This document shows, piece after piece, positions 42 through 17,847 of a stretch of 64,000 nt of DNA. A model generated the notes under the pieces. The model was given only the letters and a program-made list of their open reading frames with translations. It was not told where the DNA came from and ran no database searches. Within the stretch, counting starts at the first letter, position 1; each line of letters starts with the position of its first letter. The stretch is from Ligilactobacillus ceti DSM 22408 (GTDB taxonomy: Bacteria; Bacillota; Bacilli; Lactobacillales; Lactobacillaceae): positions 62,001-126,000 of the forward strand of contig NZ_KE383993.1 of the NCBI RefSeq assembly GCF_000423245.1. The letters run 5' to 3'. The translations under genes were made by a program, and so were the position numbers.

Positions 42-109
42 TAGATAAAATATACTGAAAATATGGTATTATAAAGTGATAATGCAGATTGTTTTAAATG
101 GAGGCAAAT

Positions 110-2131
110 ATGAAATCTATAAAAAATAAAAAAAGGGGCTTAGAGCACTGGCAAGTGATTGCGATGTTGCTATTAGCGTATGATATTTTCGCAGTTAATA
201 TTTCGTATTTAATTGCGTTATGGTTAAGATTTGATTTTAGGATATCTTTAATACCAGCAACTTATGTTAATACATGGGAATTAATGGCACCATGGTACAC
301 AATCTTTGCCATACTTGTTTTTTATGGTTTAAGACTTTATAAGAGTATTTGGCGTTTTGCTAGTTATAGCGAATTGATGCGGATTGTATCGGCCACGTTA
401 ATTACGACAATTTTTTATGTCGGGGTTACTTTGGCACTAGGACAACGGATGCCAATTTCTTATTATGCAATCGGGATGATTGTTCAAGGTGGTTTAGTTT
501 TAGGAATTCGCTTCTCATATCGTTTCTATTTATTCGAGAAAAACAGACGTGGTGTTGAAGAGAAAAAACGCGTTATGTTAGTAGGTGCCGGCATTGCTGG
601 ACAAACTATTTTAAGAGAAATTCGTCAATCACATTTAGATAGTGAAGTTAGTTGTATTATTGATGATAACTCTAATAAATGGAATCGTTATATTGAAAAT
701 GTGCCAGTTGTTGGTGGTCGAGAAGATATTTTATTAAATGCTAAGAAGTATAATATCGATGAGATTTACATTGCAATGCCAAGCGCTAGTTTGGAAGATA
801 AACGAGATATTTTAAATATCTGTAAAGAAACTGGTTGTGAACTTAAAAACTTACCAGGGATTTATCAATTAGTGAATGGTGAAGTTAATGTTGCTGCGAT
901 GCAAAATGTTCGTATCGAAGATTTATTAGGTCGTGATCCGATTAAAGTCGATATGAGTGAAATTTTCCATTCGTTAGAAGATAAAGTTATTTTAGTTACA
1001 GGTGGTGGTGGTTCAATCGGGAGTGAGTTATCACGTCAGATTGCAAGTCATAATCCTAAACAATTAATTATCTTTGATATTTATGAAAATAACGCTTATG
1101 AAATTGAACAAGAATTAAAGAAAAAATATCCAAGTTTGAATTTAAAAGTCTTAATCGGTTCTGTGCGTGATGGTCGACGAATGAATCAAGTGTTCCATGA
1201 TTATCGACCAGATGTTGTTTATCATGCAGCCGCTCATAAACATGTACCTTTAATGGAAGGTAGTCCATGTGAAGCGATTAAGAATAATGCCATCGGGACA
1301 TATAAGACAGCTTATGCAGCTGCAGCGTATGGTTGTTCGAAATTTGTTTTGATTTCAACTGATAAAGCTGTTAACCCAACGAATATTATGGGTGCTTCAA
1401 AACGACTTTGTGAAATGGTTGTCCAAAGTTTCGATGCTATGATTAAAGATGGTAAAACAAAGCAATTACCAATTTTAGAAACACATGCAGATGCTGATGA
1501 AGTTTTAATTCCAGCTGATGCTAAAACAGAATTCGTGGCAGTTCGTTTCGGTAATGTTTTAGGTAGTAACGGTTCAGTTATTCCCCTTTTCAAAAAACAA
1601 ATTGAAGCAGGCGGACCATTAACAGTTACTCACCCAGATATTATTCGCTATTTCATGACCATTCCAGAAGCAGTTTCCTTAGTATTACAGGCAGGAACCT
1701 ATGCTCATGGTGGAGAAATTTTCGTTCTAGATATGGGTGCACCAGTTAAAATTGATACCTTAGCACGAAATCTAATTAAATTATCCGGTTTAAAACCAGA
1801 TGTAGATATTAAAATTGTTTATACAGGATTACGTCCTGGTGAAAAATTATTTGAAGAAAAATTAATGGCTGAAGAAGGCATGAAGAAAACTCCAAATGAT
1901 TTAATTCAAATTGGTAGTCCAATTCCATTTAACAATGAAGAGTTTTTAGCATCATTACATGGACTTTTAGAAATTAGTTATGCAAATGATGAAGCCGATA
2001 TTCGCGCTGCTGTAGCACAAATTGTGCCGACATATCATCCTGCCGGGGAACATGGTTCAGAGAATAAAGGTGCTATGTATCATAAATTACGTGAAATTAT
2101 GGAAGAAGATCAAACTGATTTAAAAGATTAA
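110..2131 (+). CDS. membrane NDP-sugar 4,6-dehydratase (CapD/PglF-type)
   Basis: 673-residue member of the long, membrane-anchored nucleotide-sugar dehydratase family, expected to turn UDP-GlcNAc into the 4-keto-6-deoxy sugar. About four membrane segments lie in residues 15-137. A CoA-binding-like Rossmann domain (VGAGIAGQ) comes near 155, and the catalytic SDR domain begins with VTGGGGSIGSE near 293. The TDKAVNPTN and MGASKR motifs carry the catalytic Thr-Asp-Lys typical of PglF-like enzymes. Start: an ATG at 98 overlaps the GGAGG at 100-104, so ATG 110 is the better choice. It is followed after 22 bases by an aminotransferase that could use its product. The family is clear. Product stereochemistry (gluco or galacto) cannot be read from sequence. 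Confidence 0.9.
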   Translation: MKSIKNKKRGLEHWQVIAMLLLAYDIFAVNISYLIALWLRFDFRISLIPATYVNTWELMAPWYTIFAILVFYGLRLYKSIWRFASYSELMRIVSATLITTIFYVGVTLALGQRMPISYYAIGMIVQGGLVLGIRFSYRFYLFEKNRRGVEEKKRVMLVGAGIAGQTILREIRQSHLDSEVSCIIDDNSNKWNRYIENVPVVGGREDILLNAKKYNIDEIYIAMPSASLEDKRDILNICKETGCELKNLPGIYQLVNGEVNVAAMQNVRIEDLLGRDPIKVDMSEIFHSLEDKVILVTGGGGSIGSELSRQIASHNPKQLIIFDIYENNAYEIEQELKKKYPSLNLKVLIGSVRDGRRMNQVFHDYRPDVVYHAAAHKHVPLMEGSPCEAIKNNAIGTYKTAYAAAAYGCSKFVLISTDKAVNPTNIMGASKRLCEMVVQSFDAMIKDGKTKQLPILETHADADEVLIPADAKTEFVAVRFGNVLGSNGSVIPLFKKQIEAGGPLTVTHPDIIRYFMTIPEAVSLVLQAGTYAHGGEIFVLDMGAPVKIDTLARNLIKLSGLKPDVDIKIVYTGLRPGEKLFEEKLMAEEGMKKTPNDLIQIGSPIPFNNEEFLASLHGLLEISYANDEADIRAAVAQIVPTYHPAGEHGSENKGAMYHKLREIMEEDQTDLKD

Positions 2132-2153
2132 GTAATAAAGAGAGGTAATAAAG

Positions 2154-3356
2154 ATGAAACAAATCCCATTTAGTCCTCCTGATGTAGGACAAAAAGAAAT
2201 CGATCAAGTTATTGAAGCATTACAAAGTGGTTGGATTACAACAGGACCTAAAACAAAAGAATTCGAACGTCAAATTGCAGATTTCTGCCATGTAGATAAA
2301 GCTGTTTGTTTAAATTCAGCGACAGCATGTTTAGAATCTATTTTACGTGTTTTAGGAGTAGGACCAGGGGATGAAGTTATTACTTCAGCCTACACATATA
2401 CAGCATCAGCAAGTCCAGTTTGTCATGTAGGTGCTAAATTAGTAATGGTTGATACACAACCAGATAGTTTAGAAATGGATTATGATCAATTAGCTGCAGC
2501 TATTACACAAAAAACAAAAGTTATTATTCCTGTTGATTTAGGTGGTGTAATGTGTGATTACGATAAACTTTTTGAAATTGTGGAAAGTAAAAAAGATTTA
2601 TTCCACCCAACAAATGAAATTCAAAAAGCTTTAGGCCGGATTGCAGTTGTTGCAGATGCTGCTCATGGTTTTGGTGCTCAACGTAAAGGTGAAAAATGTG
2701 GATCAGTTGCTGATTTTACTAGTTTCTCTTTCCATGCTGTTAAGAATTTAACAACTGCTGAAGGTGGCGCCTTAACATGGAAGAATATTCCAGGGATTGA
2801 TAATGAGGATCTTTATAAGGAATTCATGTTGTTATCATTACATGGTCAATCAAAGGATGCCTTGGCTAAAACTAAATTAGGTGCTTGGGAATATGATATT
2901 GTCTCACCTGCTTACAAATGTAATATGACTGATATTATGGCTGGAATTGGTTTGGCACAAATGGAACGCTATCCAACATTGTTGGCGCGTCGTCAAGAAA
3001 TTATCAAAAAATATGATGAAGCATTACGTCCTTTAGGTGTACAAACATTGCCACATTATACAGATGAAAATCAATCAAGTGGACATTTATATATTACGAG
3101 AATTCCTGGTATTACAGAAGAACAAAGAAATGAAATTATTATTAAAATGGCTGAACGTGGTATTGCCACAAATGTTCACTATAAGCCATTACCAATGATG
3201 ACTGCATACAAAAATTTAGGCTTTGATATTAATAATTATCCAAATGCTTATCGAATGTATGCTAATGAAATTACATTGCCATTGCATACAAAATTAAGCG
3301 ATGAAGATGTACAATATGTCATTGATAATTTAGTGGAGATTTTAAAATGTTATTAA
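2154..3356 (+). CDS. DegT/DnrJ/EryC1/StrS sugar aminotransferase
   Basis: 400-residue PLP-dependent aminotransferase of the DegT family, which adds an amino group to a keto-sugar nucleotide. The PLP lysine lies in [14 protein letters not shown] (about residue 198), with the cofactor-contacting aspartate in [10 protein letters not shown] about 30 residues earlier. The N-terminal [17 protein letters not shown] and the GWITTGP segment are also family-typical. Because the preceding gene makes a 4-keto-6-deoxy sugar, the likely product is a UDP-4-amino-4,6-dideoxy-N-acetylhexosamine (AATGal or bacillosamine precursor). The SD is GAGAGG at 2140-2145. The 3' end overlaps the next gene by 10 bases, which fits translational coupling. 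Confidence 0.88.
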
Positions 3357-4033
3357 AAAAGTGGGATGATTTGCCTGCTAAGATGAAAACTCCTGAAGTT
3401 AAAAAGTATTATGATGAATTATCAAAAAAGAAGTTTAGTTTAGTTATGAAACGTTTTTTTGATATTATTTTAGCTACAATACTATTAATTTTATTATCAC
3501 CAATTATGTTGGTGATGATGATTTTGATTAAAACTGGTTCTGAGGGACCAGTTTTTTATCGTCAGGAAAGAGTTACAACTTATGGCAAAAAATTTAAAAT
3601 TCATAAATTTAGAACAATGGTAGTGAATGCTGATCAAATTGGTTCGCAAGTTACAGTCGGTCGTGATCCACGAATTACTAAAGTGGGGCATTTTTTACGG
3701 AAATATCGTTTAGATGAGTTTCCGCAAGTGATTGATGTATTGCAAGGAACGATGACTTTTGTAGGTACAAGACCAGAAGTTCAATTATATGTTGATGCAT
3801 ACACTCCAGCAATGATGGCGACATTATTATTACCAGCTGGAATTACATCAGAAGCAAGTATTAAATATAAAGATGAAGCTAAATTATTAGCTGATGCAGC
3901 TGATGTTGATCAAGTGTATATTGAAAAAGTTCTACCAGGTAAGATGCAATATAATTTGACGGCATTAGAAGAGTTTAGTGTTTGGAATGATTTTAAAACA
4001 ATGATTAATACGGCAATCGGTGTTCTAAAATAA
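3347..4033 (+). CDS. initiating phosphoglycosyl transferase (PglC/WcfS-like bacterial sugar transferase)
   Basis: 228-residue bacterial sugar transferase that moves a sugar-1-phosphate from a UDP-sugar to undecaprenyl phosphate at the cytoplasmic membrane and so starts repeat-unit assembly. It shows one N-terminal hydrophobic membrane helix (residues 26-62), the [10 protein letters not shown] motif, KIHKFRTM, and the C-terminal [11 protein letters not shown] and FVGTRPEV motifs. It is the short monotopic form without the extra membrane domain of WbaP-type enzymes. It overlaps the aminotransferase gene by 10 bases. The order dehydratase, aminotransferase, transferase matches known loci in which the first sugar is a 4-amino-6-deoxy sugar. 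Substrate identity is inference from context. Confidence 0.9.
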
Positions 4034-4056
4034 TAATGAGAAAGGAGTAAATTACA

Positions 4057-4806
4057 ATGATTAAAGATTTGGTTTCTGTGATAATGCCAACTTATAATAG
4101 TGGTAAATATATTAAAGAAACAATTGAAAGTGTAAAACAACAAACTTATACAAATTGGGAAATTATTATTGTTGATGACAAATCTACAGATAATACAAAA
4201 GAAATTATTAAAAATTATGTAGATGGCATAAAAATTAAGTATTATTGTTTATCAGAGAACTCAGGAGCAGCTGTAGCCAGGACTAAAGCGATGGATTTAG
4301 CAGAAGGTGAATATATGGCATTTTTAGATAGTGATGATTTATGGGAACCTGATAAATTAGAAAAACAATTGCAATTTATGCATGAAAATGATGTAGCTTT
4401 TTCTGCTACGGGATATGAACAAGTTGATGAATTTGGTGACAGATTAGATAAAAAAATACTTCCACCTATCAAAACTGATTACAATAGAATGTTATTAGAT
4501 TGTCCTGTAGGGAATTCTGCGGTTATGTATAACGTGGCAAAAATGGGGAAATTTAAAGTACCTAATATACGAAAACGAAATGATGATGCGTTATGGTTAC
4601 AAATGTTGAAAAAAGAGTCATATATATATGGAATGGACGATGTTTTAATGCAATACAGAGTTCGTGATAATTCTATATCTAGTAATAAATTTAAAGTTAT
4701 AAAATATCACTGGATATTGTATCGGGATATTGAACATTTAAGTATTATGAAATCACTATACCATATAGGATATTGGATTTTTATTAAATTATTTAAAATC
4801 AAATAA
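4057..4806 (+). CDS. GT2-family glycosyltransferase
   Basis: 249-residue GT-A fold glycosyltransferase that extends the lipid-linked repeat unit on the cytoplasmic side. The N-terminus VSVIMPTYNSGKYI and the IVDDKSTDNT nucleotide-binding motif are typical, and FLDSDDLW near residue 91 holds the metal-binding DxD. SD GAAAGGAG lies before ATG 4057. This gene begins a stretch with a lower GC feel and heavy use of ATA and AGA codons compared with the three genes before it. Sugar specificity cannot be predicted. Confidence 0.88.
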   Translation: MIKDLVSVIMPTYNSGKYIKETIESVKQQTYTNWEIIIVDDKSTDNTKEIIKNYVDGIKIKYYCLSENSGAAVARTKAMDLAEGEYMAFLDSDDLWEPDKLEKQLQFMHENDVAFSATGYEQVDEFGDRLDKKILPPIKTDYNRMLLDCPVGNSAVMYNVAKMGKFKVPNIRKRNDDALWLQMLKKESYIYGMDDVLMQYRVRDNSISSNKFKVIKYHWILYRDIEHLSIMKSLYHIGYWIFIKLFKIK

Positions 4807-4831
4807 AAATTTTTAAGGAATTAAAATTAAT

Positions 4832-5869
4832 ATGGAAAAAATAGGAATAATTGGTCATTTTGGTAAAAATAAAAATTTATTAAATGGTCAAACAATTAAA
4901 ACAAAAATTATTAGTGAAGGTTTAGTAAAAAGGTATGGTCGAGAAAATATTAGTTATCTGGATACATACAATTCTAAAAAAGAATTTATAATCAAAATAA
5001 TAATGTTGATTAGGTTAATGCGTAAATGTGAAAATATTATTATGTTGCCAGCTCATAATGGATTAAGAATCTTTGCACCTTTAATGGTACTAATTAATAA
5101 ATTTTATAAAAGAAATTTATATTATATTGTAATAGGAGGGTGGTTACCTTCCTTTTTGGAAAAGAGACCTAAATTAAAGAAAGATTTAAAAGAATTTACA
5201 ACTATTTATGTAGAAACTAAAATTATGGCAGCAAATTTAAAAGAACAAGGTTTTAAAAATATTGATATTCTACCTAATTGTAAAGAATTAAAACATGTAA
5301 AGGGAAATGAAATTCAATATTATGAAAAAGCACCGTATAAATTATGTACTTTTTCACGAGTTATGCAGGAAAAAGGTATTGAAGATGCCATAAATGTAAT
5401 TATAAATATCAATGAAAAAAATAATAAAATCATTTATACATTAGATATTTATGGGCAAGTTGATGTACAACAGCAACAATGGTTTGATGATTTAATGAAT
5501 GAAGTTCCTGATTATATACAATATAAAGGGATGATACCATTTGATCAGTCAACTCAGATTATAAAGAAATATTTTGCATTATTATTTCCTACTAAATTTT
5601 ATACAGAAGGAATTCCAGGGACTATTATAGATGCTTATTCAGCAGGGATACCTGTAATTGCATCTAGATGGGAAAGTTATGAAGATGTTATTGATGAAAA
5701 TATTACTGGTATAGGATATACCATGAACGATTTAAATGATTTTCAAAAAAAATTAGAAATGATTATGAATAAACCAGAATTGATTAATAACTTAAGAAAA
5801 AATGCTTTAAAAAAAGCTAAAAACTATGATATTACACATGTAGTTGATAATAAATTAAATCATTTTTAA
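4832..5869 (+). CDS. GT4-family glycosyltransferase
   Basis: 345-residue protein with the C-terminal GT-B domain of GT4 enzymes. The stretch FPTKFYTEGIPGTIIDAYSA carries the E-x7-E-like donor-binding region, followed by GIPVIASRWESYEDVI. The N-terminal half is poorly conserved, as usual for the acceptor domain. It lies between two other glycosyltransferases with only short gaps, so it is almost certainly cotranscribed. The SD is AAGGAATT before ATG 4832. Donor and acceptor are unknown. Confidence 0.82.
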   Translation: MEKIGIIGHFGKNKNLLNGQTIKTKIISEGLVKRYGRENISYLDTYNSKKEFIIKIIMLIRLMRKCENIIMLPAHNGLRIFAPLMVLINKFYKRNLYYIVIGGWLPSFLEKRPKLKKDLKEFTTIYVETKIMAANLKEQGFKNIDILPNCKELKHVKGNEIQYYEKAPYKLCTFSRVMQEKGIEDAINVIININEKNNKIIYTLDIYGQVDVQQQQWFDDLMNEVPDYIQYKGMIPFDQSTQIIKKYFALLFPTKFYTEGIPGTIIDAYSAGIPVIASRWESYEDVIDENITGIGYTMNDLNDFQKKLEMIMNKPELINNLRKNALKKAKNYDITHVVDNKLNHF

Positions 5870-5888
5870 AACGGAGATGAAAAAACAT

Positions 5889-6992
5889 ATGAAGAGAATA
5901 TTATGTTTGGTATCTAGTATGAATACTGGTGGAGCAGAAACATTTTTAATGAAGGTGTATAGAGAATTAGATAAAACAAAATATCAAATGGATTTTTGTG
6001 TAAATACTTCTGACAATTTTTATGAAAATGAAATTAAACAATTAGGTGGTAAGATTTTTGTAGTCCCTATGAAGTCTAAACATCCTATAAAGTCATTTTT
6101 AACATTAAAAAAAATAGTAAGAACAGAAAAATATAATTATGTAATGCGAGTTAATGAACATTCTTTGGCTACATTAGATTTAATGGCTGCTAAATTAGGC
6201 GGTGCTAATAATTTAATTATGAGATCGAGCAACGCTTCATCGGGGAATAAACTATCTGTATTTTTGCATAAAGTATTTAAATTTATGCCTAACAAGATAC
6301 CTAATATTAAATTAGCGCCATCTATAAAAGCTGCAGAATATACTTTTGGTAAAGGAACTGTTGAAAATGAAGAAACAAAAATCTTGCACAATGGTTTGGA
6401 TATTAAAATGTATACATTTAACGAAGCTGTTCGACACCAGTTACGACAAGATATGAATATAGATGATAAGTTTGTAATTGGACATGTAGGAAGATTTTCA
6501 GAACAAAAAAATCATAAATTTTTAATAAATGTATTTTATGAAATACACAAAAAAAATTCTAATGCTATATTATTATTAATTGGCAAGGGTGAATTGGAAA
6601 CAGATATAAAAAAACAAGTTGAAACATTGGGATTAACAGATGCAGTGCGCTTTTTAGGAATACAAAGTAATGTTAATGAATTATTAAATGTTATGGATGT
6701 ATTTTTATTTCCATCTTTTTTTGAAGGTATGCCAAATACGGTTATTGAAGCACAAACTAATGGTTTACCGTGTGTTATTTCTTCAGAAATAACACAAGAA
6801 GTAGAAGTTACAGATTTAGTTATACGTAAATCTTTAGGGAATCCACAAGAGTGGGCGGATTTAATCATTAGTTTATATAATGAACGAAAAAATATAGATA
6901 GAACTATATACAGTAATAAAATGAAACAAAAAGGTTACGATATTAAAGATTGTGTAAATAATTTTGAAAAGTGGGTATTTAAGAGAGGGTAA
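5889..6992 (+). CDS. GT4-family glycosyltransferase
   Basis: 367-residue GT-B enzyme. The N-terminus has the SMNTGGAETFLMKVY motif common in capsule GT4 enzymes. The C-terminal domain has IGHVGRFSEQKNHKFLI and the donor-site motif PSFFEGMPNTVIEAQTNGLP. An in-frame ATG at 5877 lies inside the GGAGATGA ribosome-binding sequence, so ATG 5889 is preferred. It resembles the glycosyltransferase at 8115 in layout (GGAET near the start, the same VGRFSE..NHKF block), which suggests they are distant paralogues within the cluster. Specificity is unknown. Confidence 0.87.
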   Translation: MKRILCLVSSMNTGGAETFLMKVYRELDKTKYQMDFCVNTSDNFYENEIKQLGGKIFVVPMKSKHPIKSFLTLKKIVRTEKYNYVMRVNEHSLATLDLMAAKLGGANNLIMRSSNASSGNKLSVFLHKVFKFMPNKIPNIKLAPSIKAAEYTFGKGTVENEETKILHNGLDIKMYTFNEAVRHQLRQDMNIDDKFVIGHVGRFSEQKNHKFLINVFYEIHKKNSNAILLLIGKGELETDIKKQVETLGLTDAVRFLGIQSNVNELLNVMDVFLFPSFFEGMPNTVIEAQTNGLPCVISSEITQEVEVTDLVIRKSLGNPQEWADLIISLYNERKNIDRTIYSNKMKQKGYDIKDCVNNFEKWVFKRG

Positions 6993-6995
6993 TTT

Positions 6996-8093
6996 ATGTC
7001 GATATATATATATAACATTTTAAGTGTGTTTGTATATAAATTTTTTATAAAAAGCAAAAAAATATATATAACTATCGTATCAATGCAATTATTTTTAATA
7101 TTAGCATTAAGAGATGTGACTGTAGGGTATGATTTAGATAATTATATTGCAGGGTATAATTATATTAACACTTTAAATTTTCGAGAAATGTTAGCGACTT
7201 TAAAGCTAGGACATGCTAATTTAATATATCCATTTAAATATGAAAGTGGTTATGTAGTATTTAATTGGATTGTAGGACATTTAGGATTTGATTTTCATAG
7301 TTTTTTGATAATTGTAGCCGGTATATGCATAACATCTATTACAATATTTATATATAAATATTCAGATAACGTTATGTTAAGTTATATAATTTATCTGGGA
7401 ATTGGTGGATATATATATTGTTTTAGTATTTTAAGACAAAGCTTAGCGTTAGCGATAGTGTTGTTATCTGTAACGTATATTTTAGATGAAAAATATTATA
7501 GAGCCATGATGTTTATAATATTAGCTGTTACGTTTCATATTACTGCTATACTATTTATCCCATTATTAATATTAAGAAAATTTAAAATAACAAATAAATT
7601 ATATAGAATTTATTTGTATGTTGTGGTATTGATTTTTTTAAGTAGTTATCAATTATATTCTAGAGTGATCTTACCATTTTTAAATAGCATTGGTGATCAA
7701 AGGTATACGCATTTAAATTTCCAAATCAATAATATGATGATAGTGTTATTATTTTTAAGTGGTATTATATATTTTTTTGTGAAAGATAAATTTTATAATA
7801 ATACCAAAAATAATTTTATGTTAGCAGCATTTAGTATGGCTACATTATATGAAATTTTTGGATTATATAATGACGGGTTAGCTAGAGGTATTATTTATTA
7901 TATGATTTTTAGTATTATTGTTATACCGAATACGATAGAAGAATATTTGTATAGAAGTTATAAATTAGGATATGATGCTAAAAATATTGGATTGCAAAAG
8001 AAAATTATATATTTTGTTATTTTAATAATAATGTTAGGGTTGATGTATATTAGTATGAAATATACACCAATGAATCCATATAAAATATATTAA
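6996..8093 (+). CDS. EpsG/Wzy-like polysaccharide polymerase
   Basis: 365-residue integral membrane protein with roughly ten hydrophobic segments. The RDVTVGYDLDNY motif after the first helices and FSILRQSLALAIVLLS in the middle are hallmarks of the EpsG family, whose members polymerise repeat units outside the membrane. It sits 3 bases after a glycosyltransferase and is followed by another and then a flippase, the expected setting for a Wzx/Wzy system. SD AGAGGG before ATG 6996. It is very AT-rich, as polymerase genes in capsule loci often are. Confidence 0.8.
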   Translation: MSIYIYNILSVFVYKFFIKSKKIYITIVSMQLFLILALRDVTVGYDLDNYIAGYNYINTLNFREMLATLKLGHANLIYPFKYESGYVVFNWIVGHLGFDFHSFLIIVAGICITSITIFIYKYSDNVMLSYIIYLGIGGYIYCFSILRQSLALAIVLLSVTYILDEKYYRAMMFIILAVTFHITAILFIPLLILRKFKITNKLYRIYLYVVVLIFLSSYQLYSRVILPFLNSIGDQRYTHLNFQINNMMIVLLFLSGIIYFFVKDKFYNNTKNNFMLAAFSMATLYEIFGLYNDGLARGIIYYMIFSIIVIPNTIEEYLYRSYKLGYDAKNIGLQKKIIYFVILIIMLGLMYISMKYTPMNPYKIY

Positions 8094-8114
8094 CGAAAAT
8101 AGTAGGTAAAAAAG

Positions 8115-9242
8115 ATGATAAAAATAGTACAATTTATACACGGTTTTAACATGGGAGGGGCTGAGACTTTAGTTAAAGAATATGCTTTGAAAATTGATAA
8201 AAATCAATTTGATTTAACTATTGTATGCTTAGATAATATGCATTCACCCTGGGATGAAATGTTGAAAAAAAACGGTATTAAAGTTATTTATATTTCAGAT
8301 TATCAAAAACGATATACTAAAAAAGATATATTATCTAGAGCATATAATAAAATACAAAGATATTATTTGGTTAAGAAAATATTACGTCAACTATCACCAG
8401 ACGTCTTGCATTATCATTTAAGTTTAAGTGATTATGTACTGTATGCTAAACTGCGGAAAAATACTAATATATTTTATACTCAGCATTTTCAATTTGAAAA
8501 TATTAGTCAAAAAAATAAAAATTATTTAAAAAAGGTAATTGCACGATATCCTGTTACTATAATTGCATTAGATAACGAAATGAAGCAAGAATTAATTACA
8601 GAGTTAAATTATACTAATGTTGTAGTTTTAAACAACGGGATAGATATTGCAAAATTTCAGTGTGTTAAAAATCGAGACTTAGTTCGTAAAGAATTAGGTA
8701 TTCCAGCAGATGCTTTTGTAGTTGGACATGTTGGTAGATTTAGTGAAGTTAAAAATCATAAATTTATTATAGAAATATTTGAAAAATTAGTTGAAATTAA
8801 TCCGAATGCATTTTTATTATTAGTGGGTGCTGGAGAAAAAGAGTATGAAATCAAAAATATGCTCGAAACAAAAAAATTAGATAGTAAAAGTATGATGTTA
8901 ACCAATAGAACCGATATTCCAGATTTATTAAATATAGTAGATAAAATAATTTTCCCGTCTATTAGTGAAGGGATCAGCGTTGCTTTAATAGAAATGCAAA
9001 TAGCAGGTAAAATTTGTATTATTTCCGATACAATTCCTAAAGAAACAGCAATTTCTAATTTATTATATCCATTGAGTTTAGAAAAAGATGCAAAGTATTG
9101 GGCTAATGTGGTTAATAATTATATTGTTAATGATGTGATATATACAGATTTAGAAGCATGGGATATGGTATCGATTGTTGAAAAATTAGAAAAAATGTAT
9201 ATACAAGCAATTGAAAATACAAAAGCAAGGGAAAGAAACTAA
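8115..9242 (+). CDS. GT4-family glycosyltransferase
   Basis: 375-residue GT-B glycosyltransferase. Visible motifs are FIHGFNMGGAETLVKEYA at the N-terminus, LNNGIDIAKF, VGHVGRFSEVKNHKFIIEIF and the C-terminal SEGISVALIEMQIAGK donor-binding region. The SD is AGTAGGT upstream of ATG 8115. It ends 2 bases before the flippase gene, so the two are probably translationally coupled. The substrate is not predictable. Confidence 0.86.
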   Translation: MIKIVQFIHGFNMGGAETLVKEYALKIDKNQFDLTIVCLDNMHSPWDEMLKKNGIKVIYISDYQKRYTKKDILSRAYNKIQRYYLVKKILRQLSPDVLHYHLSLSDYVLYAKLRKNTNIFYTQHFQFENISQKNKNYLKKVIARYPVTIIALDNEMKQELITELNYTNVVVLNNGIDIAKFQCVKNRDLVRKELGIPADAFVVGHVGRFSEVKNHKFIIEIFEKLVEINPNAFLLLVGAGEKEYEIKNMLETKKLDSKSMMLTNRTDIPDLLNIVDKIIFPSISEGISVALIEMQIAGKICIISDTIPKETAISNLLYPLSLEKDAKYWANVVNNYIVNDVIYTDLEAWDMVSIVEKLEKMYIQAIENTKARERN

Positions 9243-9244
9243 TA

Positions 9245-10765
9245 ATGAGTAATACTAGAACTAAAAATGCTATGCGAAATTCAATGGTTGCATTAGTCAG
9301 TCAGTTATTGTATATAGTAGTAAGTTTTGTTTGTAGAACTGTTTTTACCAAAGTGTTAGGTACTGCATATTTAGGTATTAATGGATTATTTACTAACATA
9401 TTGACAATATTATCATTTGCTGAGTTAGGTATTGGGAGTGCGTTAGTATATAGAATGTATAAGCCTTTGGCTAGTAATAATGTACAAAAAGTAGCTCAAT
9501 ATGTAAACTTGTACAAAAAAGTATATAATTATATTATGTTAATAATAACAGTAATTGGTTTAGCAATAGTTCCGTTTTTACAGTATTTAGTAGATGCACC
9601 TAATGTTAAAGAAAATATAATTTTATTGTATTTGTTGTATTTAATGGATACGATTACATCGTATATGTTTGTATATAAAAAATCTGTTTTAATTGCAGAT
9701 CAAAAAGATTATATAGTATCAATATATACTCAAATTTTTAATATTATTATGAATGTATTGCAAATGATTATTTTAGTATTAACACATAGTTTTATTATAT
9801 ATTGTTTAATTAGAACAGCATGCAACGTATTGAATAATTTAGTAACTTCAAGATATGTGGATAAACATTATCCTGACATTGAAAGAGCAAAAGTCGATAA
9901 ATTAAGTAAGAATGAAATCATATCATTAAAAGAAGATGTTAAAGGACTAATGTTAAGACAAGTAGCAGCAGTGTCATTTGATGGTACTGATAATATTATT
10001 ATTTCGAAATTTATAGGTATAACTACGGTAGGTGTTATATCAAACTATACCTTGTTAACAACTACTTTTAATGGAATAATGAATAAAATATTTTCATCAA
10101 TTACTGCGTCTATAGGAAATTTAACAGTTGAGGGCGATAAAGATCATATAGAGTCAGTGTTAAAAAAATTATTTTTCATTAATATGACACTATATGGGTT
10201 TTTAAGTGTAGGTTTATATACATTATTACATGATTTTGTTACCAAAATTTGGTTGAATAATCAATTTTATTTAACACAAAGTGTTATTTTTATTATGGTA
10301 TTAGAAGTGTTTTTAAGAGGAATACATTATCCGTTATTTACAACGAGAAATGCATCAGGAAAATTTTATCAATTAAAATGGATGAATTTGGTATGTGCTA
10401 TTTTAAATATAGTTTTAGATTTAATATTCGTTCAATTTTATGGGTTAATAGGAGTATATATTGCAACTTTAATTGCTTATGTATTACATAGATATGCAGA
10501 TATTTATGTAGTATATAAATATATTTTTAATAAATCTGTATTAAGTTATTATAAAATGGTTATAAAGTCTTTGATTTATATGATGTTATGTAGTTTTGGT
10601 ATACAAGGGCTGTTTAATTATATACCAACTACTGGGATATTAATGTTTATTGTTAAGATTATAGTGGTAACTATTATTTATTGGATTGGAATTTATATAT
10701 TATATAGAAAAACTAGTGAATATAAATATTTCAAAAAATTAATTTTAGGAATGTTAAAATTATAG
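9245..10765 (+). CDS. Wzx-type flippase / polysaccharide transporter
   Basis: 506-residue membrane protein of the MOP superfamily, polysaccharide transport branch, which moves the undecaprenyl-linked repeat unit across the membrane. The N-terminus (LVSQLLYIVVSFVCRTVFTK, then LGTAYLGINGLFTNI) is characteristic of Lactobacillales Wzx proteins. About 12 hydrophobic segments are spread over the length, the usual number. It follows a GT4 gene by 2 bases and precedes a TupA-like gene. Together with the EpsG-like protein at 6996 it defines a Wzx/Wzy-dependent pathway. Confidence 0.9.
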   Translation: MSNTRTKNAMRNSMVALVSQLLYIVVSFVCRTVFTKVLGTAYLGINGLFTNILTILSFAELGIGSALVYRMYKPLASNNVQKVAQYVNLYKKVYNYIMLIITVIGLAIVPFLQYLVDAPNVKENIILLYLLYLMDTITSYMFVYKKSVLIADQKDYIVSIYTQIFNIIMNVLQMIILVLTHSFIIYCLIRTACNVLNNLVTSRYVDKHYPDIERAKVDKLSKNEIISLKEDVKGLMLRQVAAVSFDGTDNIIISKFIGITTVGVISNYTLLTTTFNGIMNKIFSSITASIGNLTVEGDKDHIESVLKKLFFINMTLYGFLSVGLYTLLHDFVTKIWLNNQFYLTQSVIFIMVLEVFLRGIHYPLFTTRNASGKFYQLKWMNLVCAILNIVLDLIFVQFYGLIGVYIATLIAYVLHRYADIYVVYKYIFNKSVLSYYKMVIKSLIYMMLCSFGIQGLFNYIPTTGILMFIVKIIVVTIIYWIGIYILYRKTSEYKYFKKLILGMLKL

Positions 10766-10781
10766 ACAACAAGGAGAATAT

Positions 10782-11684
10782 ATGAAAAATAAAATCAACA
10801 AATTTTTCTTTGATGAAAAAGCACGTATGGGATATTTAACTGAATTAGGATTTTATAATAAATTATCTGATCAGAAATATTTAAAAAAGAAATTCAAAGC
10901 ACTTATGGGATATGAATTAGATTTAGATAATCCAAAAACATTTAACGAAAAATTGCAATGGTTGAAGTTACATGATAGAAAAAAAATATATACTAAAATG
11001 GCTGATAAATATGCAATGAGAGACTTTGTAGCAGAGAAACTAGGTAATGGATATACTATACCTTTATTAGGTGTGTGGGATAAACCAGAAGATATAGATT
11101 TCGATAAATTACCAACAGAGTTTGTTTTAAAATGTAATCATAATTCAGGTAAAGGTATGATTATTTGTCATGATAAAAACAAATTAAATATTAATAAAGT
11201 ACGAGATGAGTTGAATGAAGGGTTAAACGAAAACTACTATTTAAAAAATAGAGAGTGGCCGTATAAACATATACCCAGAAAAATTATCTGTGAACAATTT
11301 ATGCGAGATGATTCAGAAGAAAATTGTTTAACCGATTATAAATTTTATTGTTTTAACGGAGAACCTAAATTGATGTATTTATCACATGATAATGCAGAAA
11401 ATCCAACTACTGATTTTTTTGATATGTCTTTTAATAGACTTGATATTAGAATGAAAGATCCTAATTCTGATAAAATATATTCTAAACCAGAAGCTTTTGA
11501 AGAAATGAAAAGAATTGCTAAAATTTTAGCAAATGGAACTAAGTTTTTAAGAGTAGATTTTTATTATATTGATGGAATAGTATATGTTGGTGAAATGACA
11601 TTTTATCATAATGCTGGATATACAGAATTTGCTAATTTTGAAGATGATAAAACATTAGGAAGTTGGATAAATATAGAAAATTAA
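10782..11684 (+). CDS. TupA-like ATP-grasp protein
   Basis: 300-residue protein of the TupA-like ATP-grasp family. The N-terminus has NPKTFNEKLQWLKL. The ATP-grasp lysine lies in FVLKCNHNSGKGMI. The C-terminal half has DYKFYCFNGEP and RVDFYYIDG followed by GEMTFYHNAG, positions that usually bind Mg-ATP. The founding member is linked to joining glutamate to a glucuronate polymer (teichuronopeptide) in Bacillus. Here UDP-GlcA and UDP-GalA genes lie in the same locus, so amide decoration of a uronic acid is plausible but is inference. SD AAGGAG. It is the last gene before a 312-base gap. Confidence 0.82.
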   Translation: MKNKINKFFFDEKARMGYLTELGFYNKLSDQKYLKKKFKALMGYELDLDNPKTFNEKLQWLKLHDRKKIYTKMADKYAMRDFVAEKLGNGYTIPLLGVWDKPEDIDFDKLPTEFVLKCNHNSGKGMIICHDKNKLNINKVRDELNEGLNENYYLKNREWPYKHIPRKIICEQFMRDDSEENCLTDYKFYCFNGEPKLMYLSHDNAENPTTDFFDMSFNRLDIRMKDPNSDKIYSKPEAFEEMKRIAKILANGTKFLRVDFYYIDGIVYVGEMTFYHNAGYTEFANFEDDKTLGSWINIEN

Positions 11685-11996
11685 ATTAATGTAGTCGCGG
11701 AAGTGTTTTATAATTCTTATATATGTCAAATAAGATAATTTCAAGTATCCAATGAACTTTTAGTAGAATGTTGCAGAATTTTTGAAGTGATGTTTATATA
11801 GGATGAAATATTATGCAGACAAACATTGAAGTTTTGATTGAATATAAATTAATACAATTATAAGGTTTATTGTTCTTAACGGCCAATTTTTATTGAGGAT
11901 TCTTTCATTTGAAAGGGTAATTATTTACGTAGAGAAAACTTGAGTAGAAGTAATTGATTTGGCAAAAGTAAAATCAAATATAAAAGGAAGTCATTA
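11685..11996. other. 312-base gap without a recognisable gene
   Basis: AT-rich stretch between the TupA-like gene and the acetyltransferase gene, unusual in a locus where neighbouring genes otherwise lie within about 40 bases. All frames are closed by frequent stops. The longest ATG reading frame I saw is 16 residues (11813-11863) and has no clear SD. No strong terminator or tRNA is visible. It could be the decayed remnant of a gene or a recombination scar at the edge of the variable part of the cluster. Nothing in it proves either. Confidence 0.5.
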
Positions 11997-12545
11997 ATGG
12001 TGAACGATTTAATTAAAGAAGATTTATACAGGTATTACGGAAGTACAAGTTTTAAAAGCTTTTTAAAAGCTTTATATCGCAATCCTGGATTTAAATACAT
12101 GTATTTTCATAGAAAGATTAATTCAACAAGACTAACATTTATGAAAATTATATATAAAATAATTTTAAAGCATTTATCTATCCGATATCATTTTCAAATT
12201 CCAACAGCGGTCGAAGTAGGAGGAGGATTTTACATTGGGCATTTTGGTGCAATAGTAATAAATCCAAAAGCTAAATTAGGAAAAAATATCAATATTCATC
12301 AAGGCGTTACTATAGGACAAACAAATCGTGGAAATAAAAAAGGAACGCCTATCATACAAGATGAAGTTTGGATAGGTATAAATTCTGTTATTGTTGGTGC
12401 GATAACCATTGGAAATAATGTTTTGATCGCCCCGAATAGCTATGTGAATTTTGACGTTCCGGATAATTCCATTGTTTTAGGAAATCCTGGGAAAATAATT
12501 CCAAAACAAGAAGCTACGTATGCGTATATTAATAGAAAAGTATAA
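11997..12545 (+). CDS. serine acetyltransferase-like hexapeptide acyltransferase
   Basis: 182-residue left-handed beta-helix acyltransferase, CysE/WcaF-like. From about residue 70 it has hexapeptide-repeat text: VGGGFYIGHFGAIVINP, the likely catalytic His in INIHQGVTIG, and DEVWIGINSVIVGAITIG, ending with VLGNPGKIIP. In capsule loci such proteins usually O- or N-acetylate a sugar. It might N-acetylate the 4-amino sugar proposed for this locus, but the family assignment does not prove that. SD AAGGAAG before ATG 11997. It resumes the cluster after the 312-base gap. Confidence 0.83.
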   Translation: MVNDLIKEDLYRYYGSTSFKSFLKALYRNPGFKYMYFHRKINSTRLTFMKIIYKIILKHLSIRYHFQIPTAVEVGGGFYIGHFGAIVINPKAKLGKNINIHQGVTIGQTNRGNKKGTPIIQDEVWIGINSVIVGAITIGNNVLIAPNSYVNFDVPDNSIVLGNPGKIIPKQEATYAYINRKV

Positions 12546-12570
12546 AAATGTCATGTAATGAGGGAGAAAA

Positions 12571-13641
12571 ATGCTAAATAAAATAAAGTTAGAAAATAGA
12601 ATGATTTTCGTTACAGGTGTGGCAGGGTTTATTGGATCTAATTTAGCGAAATATTTACTACAATTAGATGATAATATTCAAATTGTAGGAATTGATAATT
12701 TAAATGATTATTATGATGTGCAACTGAAAGAAGATCGATTGAAAGAATTAGATAAATATGCTAATTTTACCTTTATTAAAGGTAGTATTGCCGATAAGAC
12801 TTTGGTGGATAATATATTTAAACAATATCAACCTAGTATTGTGGTGAATTTAGCGGCTCAAGCTGGAGTTAGATATTCTATTTTAAATCCAGATGTTTAT
12901 ATGGAATCTAATATTATTGGTTTTTATAATTTATTAGAGGCTTGTCGACATTCTTATGATGATGGTAAAACAGGGGTTGAGCATTTTGTATATGCATCAT
13001 CATCATCTGTGTATGGATCCAATAAAAAAGTTCCATATTCCACAGAAGATAAGGTTGATAATCCAGTTTCTTTATATGCTGCAAGTAAAAAGAGTAATGA
13101 ATTGATGGCACATGCCTATTCAAAATTATATAATATTCCATCAACAGGATTGCGATTTTTTACAGTATACGGTCCAGCAGGTCGTCCAGATATGGCATAT
13201 TTTGGTTTTACAAATAAATTGAAAAATCATGAAAAAATTCAAATTTTCAATTATGGTAATTGTAAACGGGATTTCACTTATATTGATGATATTGTGGAAG
13301 GGATTGTTCGAGTGATGACAAAAGCTCCTGCTAAACAGCAAGGAGAAGATGGTCTTCCAGAACCACCATATGCTATTTACAACATTGGTAATAATCACCC
13401 AGAAAACTTATTAGAGTTTGTAGATATTTTACAACAAGAATTAATTCGTGCAGGGGTGTTACCGGAAGATTATGATTTTGAACGATATAAAGAATTAGTT
13501 CCGATGCAACCGGGCGATGTACCGGTGACTTATGCAGATACAAGTTCACTAGAACGCGATTTTAATTTTAAACCTTCAACGAGTTTACGAACAGGTTTGC
13601 GTGCTTTTGCAGAATGGTATAAATCATATTATAAAGATTAG
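12571..13641 (+). CDS. UDP-glucuronate 4-epimerase-like NAD-dependent epimerase
   Basis: 356-residue extended SDR enzyme. The NAD-binding GVAGFIGSNLAKYLL is near residue 16. The catalytic Ser-Tyr-Lys set is visible as SSSSVYGSNKKVPYS and SLYAASKKSNE, and TVYGPAGRPDMAYF follows, all typical of UDP-glucuronate 4-epimerases (UDP-GlcA to UDP-GalA). The next gene makes UDP-GlcA, which supports the assignment. SD GGGAG before ATG 12571. Codon use moves back towards that of the first three genes of the cluster. Confidence 0.86.
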   Translation: MLNKIKLENRMIFVTGVAGFIGSNLAKYLLQLDDNIQIVGIDNLNDYYDVQLKEDRLKELDKYANFTFIKGSIADKTLVDNIFKQYQPSIVVNLAAQAGVRYSILNPDVYMESNIIGFYNLLEACRHSYDDGKTGVEHFVYASSSSVYGSNKKVPYSTEDKVDNPVSLYAASKKSNELMAHAYSKLYNIPSTGLRFFTVYGPAGRPDMAYFGFTNKLKNHEKIQIFNYGNCKRDFTYIDDIVEGIVRVMTKAPAKQQGEDGLPEPPYAIYNIGNNHPENLLEFVDILQQELIRAGVLPEDYDFERYKELVPMQPGDVPVTYADTSSLERDFNFKPSTSLRTGLRAFAEWYKSYYKD

Positions 13642-13657
13642 TAAAGGGGAGTTTTAG

Positions 13658-14899
13658 ATGAGTGGAAAGAAAATAGCAGTTGCAGGAACAGGGTATGTTG
13701 GTTTATCCTTAGCGGTTTTATTGGCTCAGCACAATGAAGTTACGGCGGTTGATATTATCGAAGAAAAAGTTAATTTAATTAATCAACGACTTTCACCGAT
13801 TCAAGATGTAGAAATTGAAGATTATTTAAAAACAAAAGAATTGAATTTAGTAGCAACATTGGATGCTAAAAAAGCATATTCTGAAGCAGATTATGTAATT
13901 ATTGCTGCACCAACTAACTATGATAGCCAAAAAAATTATTTTGATACAACGGCTGTAGAGACAGTAATCGATTTAGTTATGAAATATAATCCAGAAGCTA
14001 TTATGATTATTAAATCAACAATTCCTGTTGGATATACTGATGCAATTAGAGAAAAAACCGGTAGTAAAAATATTATTTTCAGTCCAGAGTTCTTACGTGA
14101 AAGCAAGGCTTTATATGACAATTTATATCCTAGTCGAATTATTGTGGGTACTGATGAAAATGATTTAAGATTAACTGAAGCCGCTAATGAATTTGCATCA
14201 TTGTTAGCAGAAGGTGCCATTAAAGATAATATAGATATTTTGTTAATGGGATTTAAAGAAGCTGAAGCTGTAAAATTATTTGCTAATACTTATCTTGCTA
14301 TGCGAGTATCTTATTTTAATGAATTAGATACATATGCAGAGTTAAAACAATTAGATACAAAAAAAATCATTGAAGGTGTTTGCTTAGATCCTAGAATTGG
14401 TACTCATTATAATAATCCGTCATTTGGATATGGTGGATATTGTTTACCGAAAGATACTAAGCAATTATTAGCAAATTATGCAGATGTTCCAGAAAATATT
14501 ATTGGAGCTATTGTTCAATCTAATAGAACACGCAAAGATTTTATTGCTAATCAAGTATTAAAGCAAGCAGGGTATTATAGTGACAATAGTTCCTTTGATG
14601 AAGTTTTAGAAAAACCAATTGTCATTGGTGTATATAGATTGACTATGAAGAGTAACTCAGATAATTTTAGACAAAGTAGTATTCAAGGTGTAATGAAAAG
14701 AGTTAAAGCAAAAGGTGCAGAAGTTGTAATCTATGAACCTACGTTAGAAAATAATTCTACATTTTTTGGAAGTCGTGTAGTTAATGATATTGATGAATTT
14801 AAACAAATGACAGATGCGATTATAGTTAATAGATATGAAGATAAATTAGACGATGTTTTGGATAAAGTATATACACGCGATTTATTTAGAAGAGATTAA
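13658..14899 (+). CDS. ugd: UDP-glucose 6-dehydrogenase
   Basis: 413-residue UDP-glucose dehydrogenase that oxidises UDP-Glc to UDP-GlcA with two NAD. The N-terminal Rossmann motif is [28 protein letters not shown] is the substrate-binding block, and [14 protein letters not shown] holds the catalytic Cys. The length is close to the family norm. It lies 16 bases after the epimerase and supplies its substrate. GalU at 17905 supplies the UDP-Glc. SD AAAGGGGAG before ATG 13658. Confidence 0.93.
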
Positions 14900-14938
14900 T
14901 ATTATTAAATCGTATTAATCTTTAAGGAGTATAAATCA

Positions 14939-16156
14939 ATGGATAATAATGAAATGACACACAATATTAATCGATTATTTGAAATATTTATCAAGTATAT
15001 TTATTTAATAATTATAGGTATTATTATAGGTGGGGTGGGAATGTTAATTTTAACAAGAACCACTCATAATAAAAATACAGATAGTTATGTTGCAAATGTA
15101 TCGGTTTTAATTAGTCCTAATAAGCAACTCAATAATACTGAACAAAAAACAGGTATGGTTTCAATGGGAACTTATGAAGAACTAGCTAAAAAAAGAGTTA
15201 TATTACAACCATTATCAGATTATTTAATTAATCATGGTTATAATGTAAAACCTAATAAACTAATTGAAAAAATAACAGTTAATAATACTAATAATTCACA
15301 AATTTTAAATTTTATTATTAAAGATAATAATAAAACTCATACTACGCAAATAGCTAAACAGTTTATTAACATATATATAAAAGAAACGTCAACATTAATA
15401 CCTAATAATAAGATTAGTGTGCTTTCTAATGTAGATGTTCATAAAGTTAACATACCGAAAAAAAGTGAGTTAAAGAGAGTATTACTGGGAGTGTTTATAG
15501 GTGGTTTATTTGCTTATATACTTGCTTATTTTTTAGATTTAAGAATTAAAAATAAAAAAGATTTGAATAAATTTGTAAGCAGAAATAAAATTTCTAACTT
15601 AGGTTTAGTAAGCAAATCACACGTTAACGATGACAATTTTATAAAAAAACTTTCTCAAAAAATAGAATTAGTGATAGGAAAAAATAAAGCTGTATTAATT
15701 AGTTCGATAAAAAATAATGTTTATCAAAATAGAATTATTGAGTTGTTGAGTAGTAATTATAAACAACAAGGTTTAAAAGTGGCTATAATTGATTTTAATA
15801 ATATTAATATAGCTAATGACTCAGATAAGGTAAATATCTGGGATGTTTTAACGGATCAAGTGAATTTAAATGAACAATTATTAAAAAAAGAGTTATTGGT
15901 TTTAAATGCAGATGAAGACAATGATGTTTTTCTTGTGTTAAAATCAGCGAAATTAGATGTACTGATTGGTCAGTTAAATGAATATTATGATATTGTTATG
16001 ATTAATATTCCAAGTGAGTTAAAATATGAACATGATATCAAAAAAGTAAATGATATTGTTTTTGTTGTGGATATTTCTAAAGATAACAAAAAACAAATTG
16101 TTGAAAAATGTCAAGAATATTCTGACATGGAGCAATTGGGTATTTTTATTAAATAA
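14939..16156 (+). CDS. Wzz-type chain-length protein fused to a degenerate BY-kinase-like domain
   Basis: 405-residue protein. Residues 1-200 look like a capsule chain-length determinant: a short cytoplasmic start, a TM at about 19-38, an extracytoplasmic domain, then VHKVNIPKKSELKRVLLGVF leading into the second TM (about 180-200). The C-terminal 200 residues follow the layout of CpsD/YwqD tyrosine kinases but the P-loop is missing: VLISSIKNNVYQNRI stands where a GxxxxGKT motif is expected. VAIIDFNN still resembles the Walker A' strand, and YDIVMINIPSE replaces the usual acidic Walker B. There is no tyrosine-rich tail. It is the last gene before a strong terminator, whereas such genes usually lead the operon. 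It probably regulates length without kinase activity (inference). Confidence 0.72.
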   Translation: MDNNEMTHNINRLFEIFIKYIYLIIIGIIIGGVGMLILTRTTHNKNTDSYVANVSVLISPNKQLNNTEQKTGMVSMGTYEELAKKRVILQPLSDYLINHGYNVKPNKLIEKITVNNTNNSQILNFIIKDNNKTHTTQIAKQFINIYIKETSTLIPNNKISVLSNVDVHKVNIPKKSELKRVLLGVFIGGLFAYILAYFLDLRIKNKKDLNKFVSRNKISNLGLVSKSHVNDDNFIKKLSQKIELVIGKNKAVLISSIKNNVYQNRIIELLSSNYKQQGLKVAIIDFNNINIANDSDKVNIWDVLTDQVNLNEQLLKKELLVLNADEDNDVFLVLKSAKLDVLIGQLNEYYDIVMINIPSELKYEHDIKKVNDIVFVVDISKDNKKQIVEKCQEYSDMEQLGIFIK

Positions 16157-16181
16157 TATATTAATTAAATATGATTTAAAG

Positions 16182-16223
16182 AAAAGATATTATACAGATA
16201 ATATGTGTATAATATCTTTTTTT
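16182..16223 (+). terminator. intrinsic terminator of the capsule operon
   Basis: A 15-bp perfect stem (16182-16196 with 16206-16220) with a 9-base loop runs into a T tract. It ends the gene run that begins before the window. Confidence 0.9.
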
Positions 16224-16362: not shown

Positions 16363-17847
16363 TTGAATAGAAAATTTTTAATAAGTAGTTTTTTGACGAT
16401 AAGTATATTAATGTGTATTAATGATAATTTTATTTCTGCAGATGTAATCAAAAAAACAGATACACAAAATATAACTGTAGTAAATAAAGATACGCATCAA
16501 GTAAATGATAGAAATGATATTTCACAAAATAGTCAATATAAAACAACTGAAAAACAAAGTTATATTAAGTACAGTGATAAAAATAAAATAACAAATGATA
16601 AAACTGTTAATGAACTAACGTATAGCCATAAGAGTGTAAATGATAAAAAATATGGACAACAAAAAATAAACGGACATTGGTATTTATATAATGAAGAAGG
16701 AATAATGCAAACAGGCTTTCAATATATTAAAGACCAAGATAAAACAGTTTATTATAATGAAGCTGGACAAATGCAGTATGGACAACAAAAAATAAATGGA
16801 CATTGGTATTTGTTTAGTACAACCAATGGTGCTATGCAAACAGGCTTTCAATATATTAAAGACCAAGATAAAACAGTTTATTATAATAAAGTTGGTCAGA
16901 TGCAATATGGACAACAAAAAATAAATGGACAATGGTATTTATTTAGTACAACAAATGGTACTATGCAAACAGGCTTTCAATATATTAAAGATCAAGATAA
17001 AACAGTTTATTATAATGAAGATGGACAAATGCAGTATGGACAACAAAAAATAAATGGACAATGGTATTTATTTAGTACAACAAATGGCAATATGCAAACA
17101 GGCTTTCAATATATTAAAGACCAAGATAAAACAGTTTATTATAATGAAGCTGGTCAAATGCAATATGGAAAACAAAAAATAAATAATAAGTATTATTTAT
17201 TTAATCAATTTAATGGGAAAATGATGACTGGATGGATTCTTTTGAATGGTGTTCAATATTATTGTTATTCAGATGGACATATGGCAATTGATGAAATTAT
17301 AGATGGTAAAAAATTAGATATTAACGGTAAGTATATTGCAGTAAAATTATTTGTTATTTCTGGGCATGGAGCAGGTGATCCTGGCGCATGTGCTAATGGT
17401 TACAGAGAAGCAGATTTAACAAGGTTATTAGCAAAACAAATTAAACAATTAGGTGGTAATCGTGTATTAATAAGTGAATATGATAGAGATTATTATCAAG
17501 ATAATGGTATAACAAAATTAAAACTACCTATAACAACATCTATTATTGAACTTCATTTAGATAGTGCTAGTCCTACTGCGCGTGGTGGCCATATTATCAA
17601 ACAAAAAGGTACGAAAGCTACAGAAAGTGATATTAAGTTAGAAAAACTTATAACTAAATATCTTCCAGGTAGAAGTAAAAAAATTGTTTATAGAGATAAT
17701 TTAGCTAACCCCAAGCGTGCGATGAAACAAGGTTATGATTATAGATTGATGGAATGTGGTTTTATAACTAATAAAAAAGATGTTAAGGAATTTCATGAAT
17801 ATTTAAGTGAGTTAGCAAAAGGAATATTGGAAGCATTTGGAGTATAA
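16363..17847 (+). CDS. secreted N-acetylmuramoyl-L-alanine amidase with YG/glucan-binding-type repeats
   Basis: 494 residues starting at TTG with SD AGGAGTGAG. A signal peptide (about residues 1-26, ISA before the likely cut) and a Lys/Asn/Thr-rich linker come first. From about residue 97 come four near-identical 42-43-residue repeats of the type INGHWYLF, MQTGFQYIKDQDKTVYYN, and one divergent copy. These resemble glucan- or choline-binding repeats that attach enzymes to wall polymers. The C-terminal 165 residues form an Amidase_3 domain: zinc ligands are visible as the His in ISGHGAGDPG, the Glu in YREADLTR and the His in ELHLDS, with the catalytic Glu in LMECGFITN. It should cleave the peptidoglycan amide bond outside the cell. 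Its place between capsule genes and galU suggests a surface-remodelling role (inference). Confidence 0.88.
   Translation: MNRKFLISSFLTISILMCINDNFISADVIKKTDTQNITVVNKDTHQVNDRNDISQNSQYKTTEKQSYIKYSDKNKITNDKTVNELTYSHKSVNDKKYGQQKINGHWYLYNEEGIMQTGFQYIKDQDKTVYYNEAGQMQYGQQKINGHWYLFSTTNGAMQTGFQYIKDQDKTVYYNKVGQMQYGQQKINGQWYLFSTTNGTMQTGFQYIKDQDKTVYYNEDGQMQYGQQKINGQWYLFSTTNGNMQTGFQYIKDQDKTVYYNEAGQMQYGKQKINNKYYLFNQFNGKMMTGWILLNGVQYYCYSDGHMAIDEIIDGKKLDINGKYIAVKLFVISGHGAGDPGACANGYREADLTRLLAKQIKQLGGNRVLISEYDRDYYQDNGITKLKLPITTSIIELHLDSASPTARGGHIIKQKGTKATESDIKLEKLITKYLPGRSKKIVYRDNLANPKRAMKQGYDYRLMECGFITNKKDVKEFHEYLSELAKGILEAFGV
16651..17163 (+). repeat. four tandem 126-129-bp repeats in the amidase gene
   Basis: Units start at 16651, 16777, 16906 and 17035 (steps of 126, 129, 129 bp), and a fifth, diverged unit starts at 17164. 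Long stretches are identical at DNA level, including silent positions, which indicates recent duplication or gene conversion and allows in-frame copy-number change. Confidence 0.9.

Follow-up and report, generated by a model that had tools for sequence, protein, structure and literature searches.

Results

A cps operon closed by a fusion gene

The window analysed here, a stretch of 64,000 nucleotides from the 1.39 Mb genome of Ligilactobacillus ceti DSM 22408, contains a cps operon that starts just 5' of the window with the gene of a 314-aa NAD-dependent epimerase (L002:11098-12042), continues with window genes from base 98 and ends with the gene considered in this study. The relevant features are:

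98-14899, plus strand: rest of the cps operon inside the window (profile matches)
6996-8093, plus strand: EpsG-type polymerase of the cps operon
9245-10765, plus strand: flippase-like protein of the cps operon
13658-14899, plus strand: UDP-glucose dehydrogenase (ugd) of the cps operon
14924-14929, plus strand: ribosome-binding site AAGGAG (sequence)
14939-16156, plus strand: fusion gene, putative Wzd/CapA-type polysaccharide co-polymerase with a BY pseudokinase domain, 405 aa (profiles, model)
14993-15055, plus strand: first transmembrane helix, about residues 19-39, inside the predicted helix 3-42 (hydrophobicity by reading, model)
15065-15463, plus strand: extracytoplasmic alpha/beta domain of the co-polymerase, residues 43-175 (TIGR01006 profile, model)
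15452-15463, plus strand: proline-motif remnant IPKK at the end of the extracytoplasmic domain (by reading)
15473-15535, plus strand: second transmembrane helix, about residues 179-199 (model)
15590-15610, plus strand: juxtamembrane beta strand, residues 218-224, within the range aligned with CapA1B1 (model, structural alignment)
15614-16153, plus strand: BY pseudokinase domain, residues 226-405, without tyrosine tail (profiles, alignments, structural alignment)
15704-15733, plus strand: Walker A position, SIKNNVYQNR versus canonical SHTQSEGKST (alignment)
15779-15799, plus strand: Walker A' position, VAIIDFN, first Asp kept and second Asp lost (alignment)
15986-16012, plus strand: Walker B position, YDIVMINIP, Asp replaced by Asn (alignment)
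16179-16223, plus strand: intrinsic terminator hairpin and T-run at the operon end (-18.8 kcal/mol, z -5.2)

The other products of the operon are an NDP-sugar dehydratase, an aminotransferase, a priming transferase, glycosyltransferases, a TupA-like protein, an acetyltransferase and an epimerase, and the GC content is 22-26% across much of the operon versus about 36% just downstream. The fusion gene, which has an ATG start and is the same gene as C1:76939-78156, is the last of the operon, 39 nt past ugd and followed by the strong terminator hairpin, in keeping with the operon-end position given in an earlier note on this DNA. Its product is the sole co-polymerase of an otherwise complete Wzx/Wzy operon and therefore most likely serves the operon that the gene closes. 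Directly past the terminator (16363-17847) lies the gene of an Amidase_3 protein with choline-binding/glucan-binding-type repeats.

A frameshift or chimera artefact was considered as the origin of the fusion and dropped, since the reading frame is open and periodic across all 405 codons, in both halves, and the gene has its own ribosome-binding site and terminator. GC at second codon positions is 0.14 in the C-terminal domain versus 0.24-0.37 in other operon genes.

The co-polymerase half

Residues 5-226 match TIGR01006 (the CspC/Wzd family) with E 5.8e-14, scoring 52 bits against a cut-off of 296, under which the canonical Wzd of the same genome also falls (216 bits); the Pfam search gave nothing meaningful and no Wzz match in the ORF. 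The layout is that of PCP-2 proteins, with model helices at residues 3-42 and 176-215 and an extracytoplasmic alpha/beta domain between them, and profile and model together bear out the two-TM Wzz-like N-terminus that had been read from the sequence. The proline motif reported there was overstated, and what stands is a remnant: the region preceding the second helix reads IPKKSELKR, with one Pro, versus VPQKPIAPK in the canonical Wzd of the genome. The nearest relative of the N-terminal domain is a second fusion from the same genus, in genome G022 (phmmer 1e-14).

The kinase-like half

A match to TIGR01007, the profile of the BY-kinase domain, covers the C-terminal 183 aa (E 4.6e-5). Against the same domain, a profile of Lactiplantibacillus pseudokinases (described below) gives E 2.7e-7 and 26.4 bits, the composition bias being 14 bits, while 200 shuffled sequences score at most 4.9; the canonical-kinase profile gives 9.3 bits, with shuffles at 4.6 or less. 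Chance similarity was dropped on these shuffle scores. The closest phmmer matches of the domain are to Lactiplantibacillus pseudokinases (3e-9) and to the pseudokinase of genome G252 (1.4e-6), the best canonical kinase following at 2.6e-4. With hhalign, canonical kinases match the single C-terminal sequence weakly (probability 8%, P 0.004) and pseudokinase profiles reach 90%.

The catalytic motifs are gone, the loss of Walker A, of the Walker B acid and of the tyrosine cluster having been claimed in the earlier note. In an ungapped alignment GKST of Walker A is replaced by YQNR, leaving no GK[ST]; Walker A' LDAD has become IDFN and Walker B IIID has become VMIN, with Asn for the acid, so that one of the three Asp residues is retained. 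Nor is there a tyrosine cluster, the protein stopping at its last strand (LGIFIK) with a tail length of 0, versus a tail of 16-34 residues with 3-10 Tyr in canonical homologues. By reading of the alignments the EX2RX2R oligomerisation motif is also absent, N-x2-K-x2-S standing in its place. The C-terminal half thus combines a predicted BY-kinase fold with the lack of catalytic motifs and Tyr tail that characterises BY pseudokinases of the EcpK/HfsB kind, and its putative partnership with a PCP part takes the form of a fusion in one reading frame.

No close orthologue of the fusion was found in our searches: a whole-protein scan of the genome contigs gave no relative, phmmer against PDB sequences gave no match to the ORF, and tblastn against plasmids returned only Wzz parts, in Priestia and Paenibacillus.

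Predicted structure

The AlphaFold2 model (mean pLDDT 80.8) was built from both fusions aligned with kinases of Lactobacillaceae; a mixed Wzd and Wze alignment, which misplaced the Wzd rows, was left out. It shows a pair of long helices in the membrane and a kinase fold, complete to the last strand, that resembles those of Wzc and CapAB. The comparison with CapAB that had been proposed as a check gives CapA1B1 as the best structural match (Z 20.6, 198 residues, 3.0 A), and full-length Wzc is matched with Z 18.5-19.9 over 360-372 residues, both TM helices and the juxtamembrane strand included. These scores agree with the CpsD-type kinase fold claimed for the C-terminus, to be read with the qualification that true kinases in the input alignment favour their own fold and that the model is not independent proof; because of this, it is the profile scores and shuffles that constitute the independent evidence for the fold. 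Single-sequence AlphaFold2 of the C-terminal domain was uninformative (pLDDT 40). Profile, predicted fold, complete motif loss and a related family of dead kinases together give good support to the identity first proposed for the protein, that of a pseudokinase co-polymerase.

Related dead kinases in Lactobacillaceae

Eleven further pseudokinases were found in Lactobacillaceae: the G022 fusion, eight stand-alone proteins from Lactiplantibacillus (8 of 21 species) and one from each of two other genera, G334 (genus g12) and G252 (genus g19), the stand-alone ones each lying beside their own Wzd. The G022 fusion is 423 aa long, reads GNIGQAD in place of Walker A and lacks a tail, and its gene adjoins an LCP gene. 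Among 26 genomes of the genus only G022 shares the fusion architecture, and a search at E 1e-18 in 395 genomes from across the order found no such fusion elsewhere. Two candidates with long open frames, in G049 and G334, were rejected as fusions since they proved to be separate Wzd and Wze genes.

Walker A is disrupted and the Tyr tail missing in all 12 pseudokinases; the position of the catalytic Lys is occupied by Gln in nine of them and that of the Walker B Asp by Asn in eight. Those from Lactiplantibacillus show 33-41% identity to one another's reference and are not fragmented. The remaining Wze-type kinases that were read have GK[ST] or a one-letter variant of it, with a Tyr-rich tail in the full-length ones. 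In the tree the domain from the window has a branch length of about 10 and is unplaceable, long branches being joined; for the dead kinases this tree needs three changes, a minimum of two being imposed by its starred branches.

Several neighbouring observations deserve mention. A recurrent module of Wzd, pseudo-Wze and a serine-hydrolase-like protein with a weak match to Beta-lactamase (PF00144) is found at L109:3539-5963, L112:8464-10870 and similar Lactiplantibacillus loci, adjoining an aquaporin gene in several species, with cps genes after it. L. plantarum cps1 has been described with wzd and without wze (PMC3539956). In genus g12, kinases that are otherwise canonical and have an intact Tyr tail carry the Walker A variants EGKAT and ESKST (L106:1008-1754 and L103:1500-2378). 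A Lachnospiraceae MAG (JAKSRP010000052.1, L190:512-3464) encodes two adjacent fused co-polymerase/kinase ORFs that seem complementary, the first with an intact Walker A (DEGKTS) and no Tyr tail, the second with GEGISIT, the Walker A Lys lost, and a very Tyr-rich tail, which gives the impression of a division into enzyme and substrate.

Canonical kinases and the CpsB/CapC phosphatase

The earlier note had also suggested an active kinase upstream of the window. A canonical one does exist in the genome, at C1:7963-8631, with an intact EGKST and a Tyr tail, as part of a phosphatase-Wzd-Wze set (C1:6505-8631); the set, however, is about 68 kb upstream of the fusion gene and belongs to a separate, complete cps locus.

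The search for phosphatases, made in 48 genomes, covered the CpsB/CapC type only. It found none in the five genomes that have a pseudokinase and in which no other kinase-type protein was detected (G022, G334, G252, G299 and G311). In the genome of the window and in G121, which have both kinase forms, the single CpsB adjoins the canonical kinase. Among controls with canonical kinases 39 of 41 have CpsB/CapC, versus 0 of 5 (Fisher p 1.5e-5), a value that treats species as independent and ignores kinship, two of the five pseudokinase-only genomes being from the same genus and the controls having been picked for strong canonical kinases. Such co-absence of the phosphatase would be expected of a phosphorylation-free system.

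The canonical BY-kinases of G049 and G055 have no CpsB/CapC match, and another phosphatase type may serve them. In G117, a 569-aa ORF (L110:447-2153, minus strand) encodes a single polypeptide in which a linker connects a canonical BY-kinase (SDGKST, Tyr-rich tail) with a CpsB/CapC-like phosphatase sequence.

Discussion

In the canonical cycle an octamer assembles in the unphosphorylated state, falls apart once the tail is autophosphorylated and is reset by the phosphatase, less phosphorylation tending toward longer or more uniform chains (reviewed in PMC12220298). We propose, with a probability of roughly 65%, that the fusion protein is a phosphorylation-independent co-polymerase belonging to its own operon, in which the dead kinase is a built-in scaffold. 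Since the protein has neither a catalyst nor a tail, and since its locus encodes no phosphatase, we infer a permanent scaffold: the C-terminal domain would be unable to phosphorylate or to be phosphorylated in the usual way and would act as a fixed cytoplasmic scaffold holding the co-polymerase subunits together and guiding the Wzy-type (EpsG) polymerase without a kinase/phosphatase cycle. The protein probably sets the length of capsule sugar chains, and this length would be set structurally rather than switched by phosphorylation. With EX2RX2R lost, as judged from the alignments, there is no assurance that the kinase domain forms rings, and oligomerisation would have to rest on the TM and extracytoplasmic part.

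A different reading, raised by the earlier note, is that of a decoy or partner acting in trans, the fusion protein mixing or competing with the canonical Wzd/Wze of the second locus and so tuning the active kinase. The intact phosphatase-Wzd-Wze set in the same genome makes this possible, both kinase forms also occur in at least one Lactiplantibacillus species, and there is a precedent in S. aureus, where the inactive CapB1 has been proposed to act on CapB2 (PMC3795738). A general decoy role is nevertheless disfavoured because no active kinase was found in the five pseudokinase-only species, which also lack CpsB; moreover, the site on the cytoplasmic C-terminus of Wzd that Wze binds in canonical systems is used in cis in the model of the fusion, and the operon has no other co-polymerase. 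We therefore regard this reading as unlikely for the protein studied here.

It is similarly doubtful that the C-terminal domain is a relict, that is, a decaying kinase that is tolerated and unneeded while the Wzd half alone works. The extreme divergence of the domain points that way, as do its low GC at second codon positions, which is expected if AT drift alters the protein, and the lack of any orthologue retaining a recognisably similar domain. Against it, the frame remains open and periodic over its whole length and the predicted fold is complete to the last strand, the G022 fusion also retains a degenerate domain, and the Lactiplantibacillus pseudokinases persist unfragmented in their eight species. 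That the pocket still binds a nucleotide or nucleotide sugar, as a non-phosphorylating sensor, is a highly improbable reading, to which the retained fold, the first Walker A' Asp and the adjoining ugd lend something but which faces the replacement of every P-loop contact residue (YQNR for GKST), with no nucleotide-binding signature remaining.

Beyond the single protein, we find it an evenly balanced proposal that Lactobacillaceae several times gave up the phosphorylation switch, with catalysis, Tyr tail and CpsB lost together, and that the dead kinase became fused to the co-polymerase in two species from a single genus, giving a phosphorylation-free Gram-positive class. We found no description in the open-access literature of a fused pseudokinase co-polymerase in lactobacilli, nor of the spread of dead kinases in Lactobacillaceae or their co-occurrence with CpsB loss. 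A debated question is whether tyrosine phosphorylation drives the length of Wzy-dependent polymers, as its motor, or only tunes it. The presence in lactobacilli of dead kinases, often without the matching phosphatase, suggests that control of chain length is possible in the absence of phosphorylation, and systems in non-pathogenic lactobacilli that have neither kinase chemistry nor Tyr tail nor phosphatase make the question directly testable. It is also a warning that proteins annotated in lactic acid bacteria as 'CpsD/CapB family tyrosine kinase' can be catalytically dead.

Comparison with known systems

CapAB of S. aureus, CpsCD of S. pneumoniae and Wzd-Wze of Lacticaseibacillus rhamnosus (PCP-2b) share both modules and the predicted fold with the fusion; in them, however, the modules are separate proteins, with an intact Walker A, a Tyr tail and a CpsB/Wzb phosphatase. 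The fusion locus has none of these. CapB1 of S. aureus and PtkB of B. subtilis are kinase-type proteins with no measured activity that have been discussed as pseudokinases; CapB1 retains its nucleotide site and binds ADP-Mg (PMC3795738), whereas the motifs of the fusion are gone.

Since EcpK, the pairing of a BY pseudokinase with a PCP-2 protein has been an established type. EcpK/EpsV of Myxococcus xanthus and HfsB/HfsA of Caulobacter likewise have a BY-kinase fold with no Walker motifs or Tyr-rich tail and a Wzx/Wzy co-polymerase partner, and a phosphorylation-independent scaffold role has been proposed for them (PMC12004946); they serve as experimental precedents for the reading preferred here. 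In these systems the two parts are separate Gram-negative proteins, while the fusion is a single Lactobacillaceae polypeptide with a short, Wzd-type extracytoplasmic domain. PCP-2 proteins fused to a pseudokinase are known from Gram-negative hosts, namely Sinorhizobium (SMc01795), Brucella, Mesorhizobium and Vibrio (PMC12004946, after Cuthbertson et al.), and share the one-polypeptide architecture of the fusion, the comparison with them being one of architecture.
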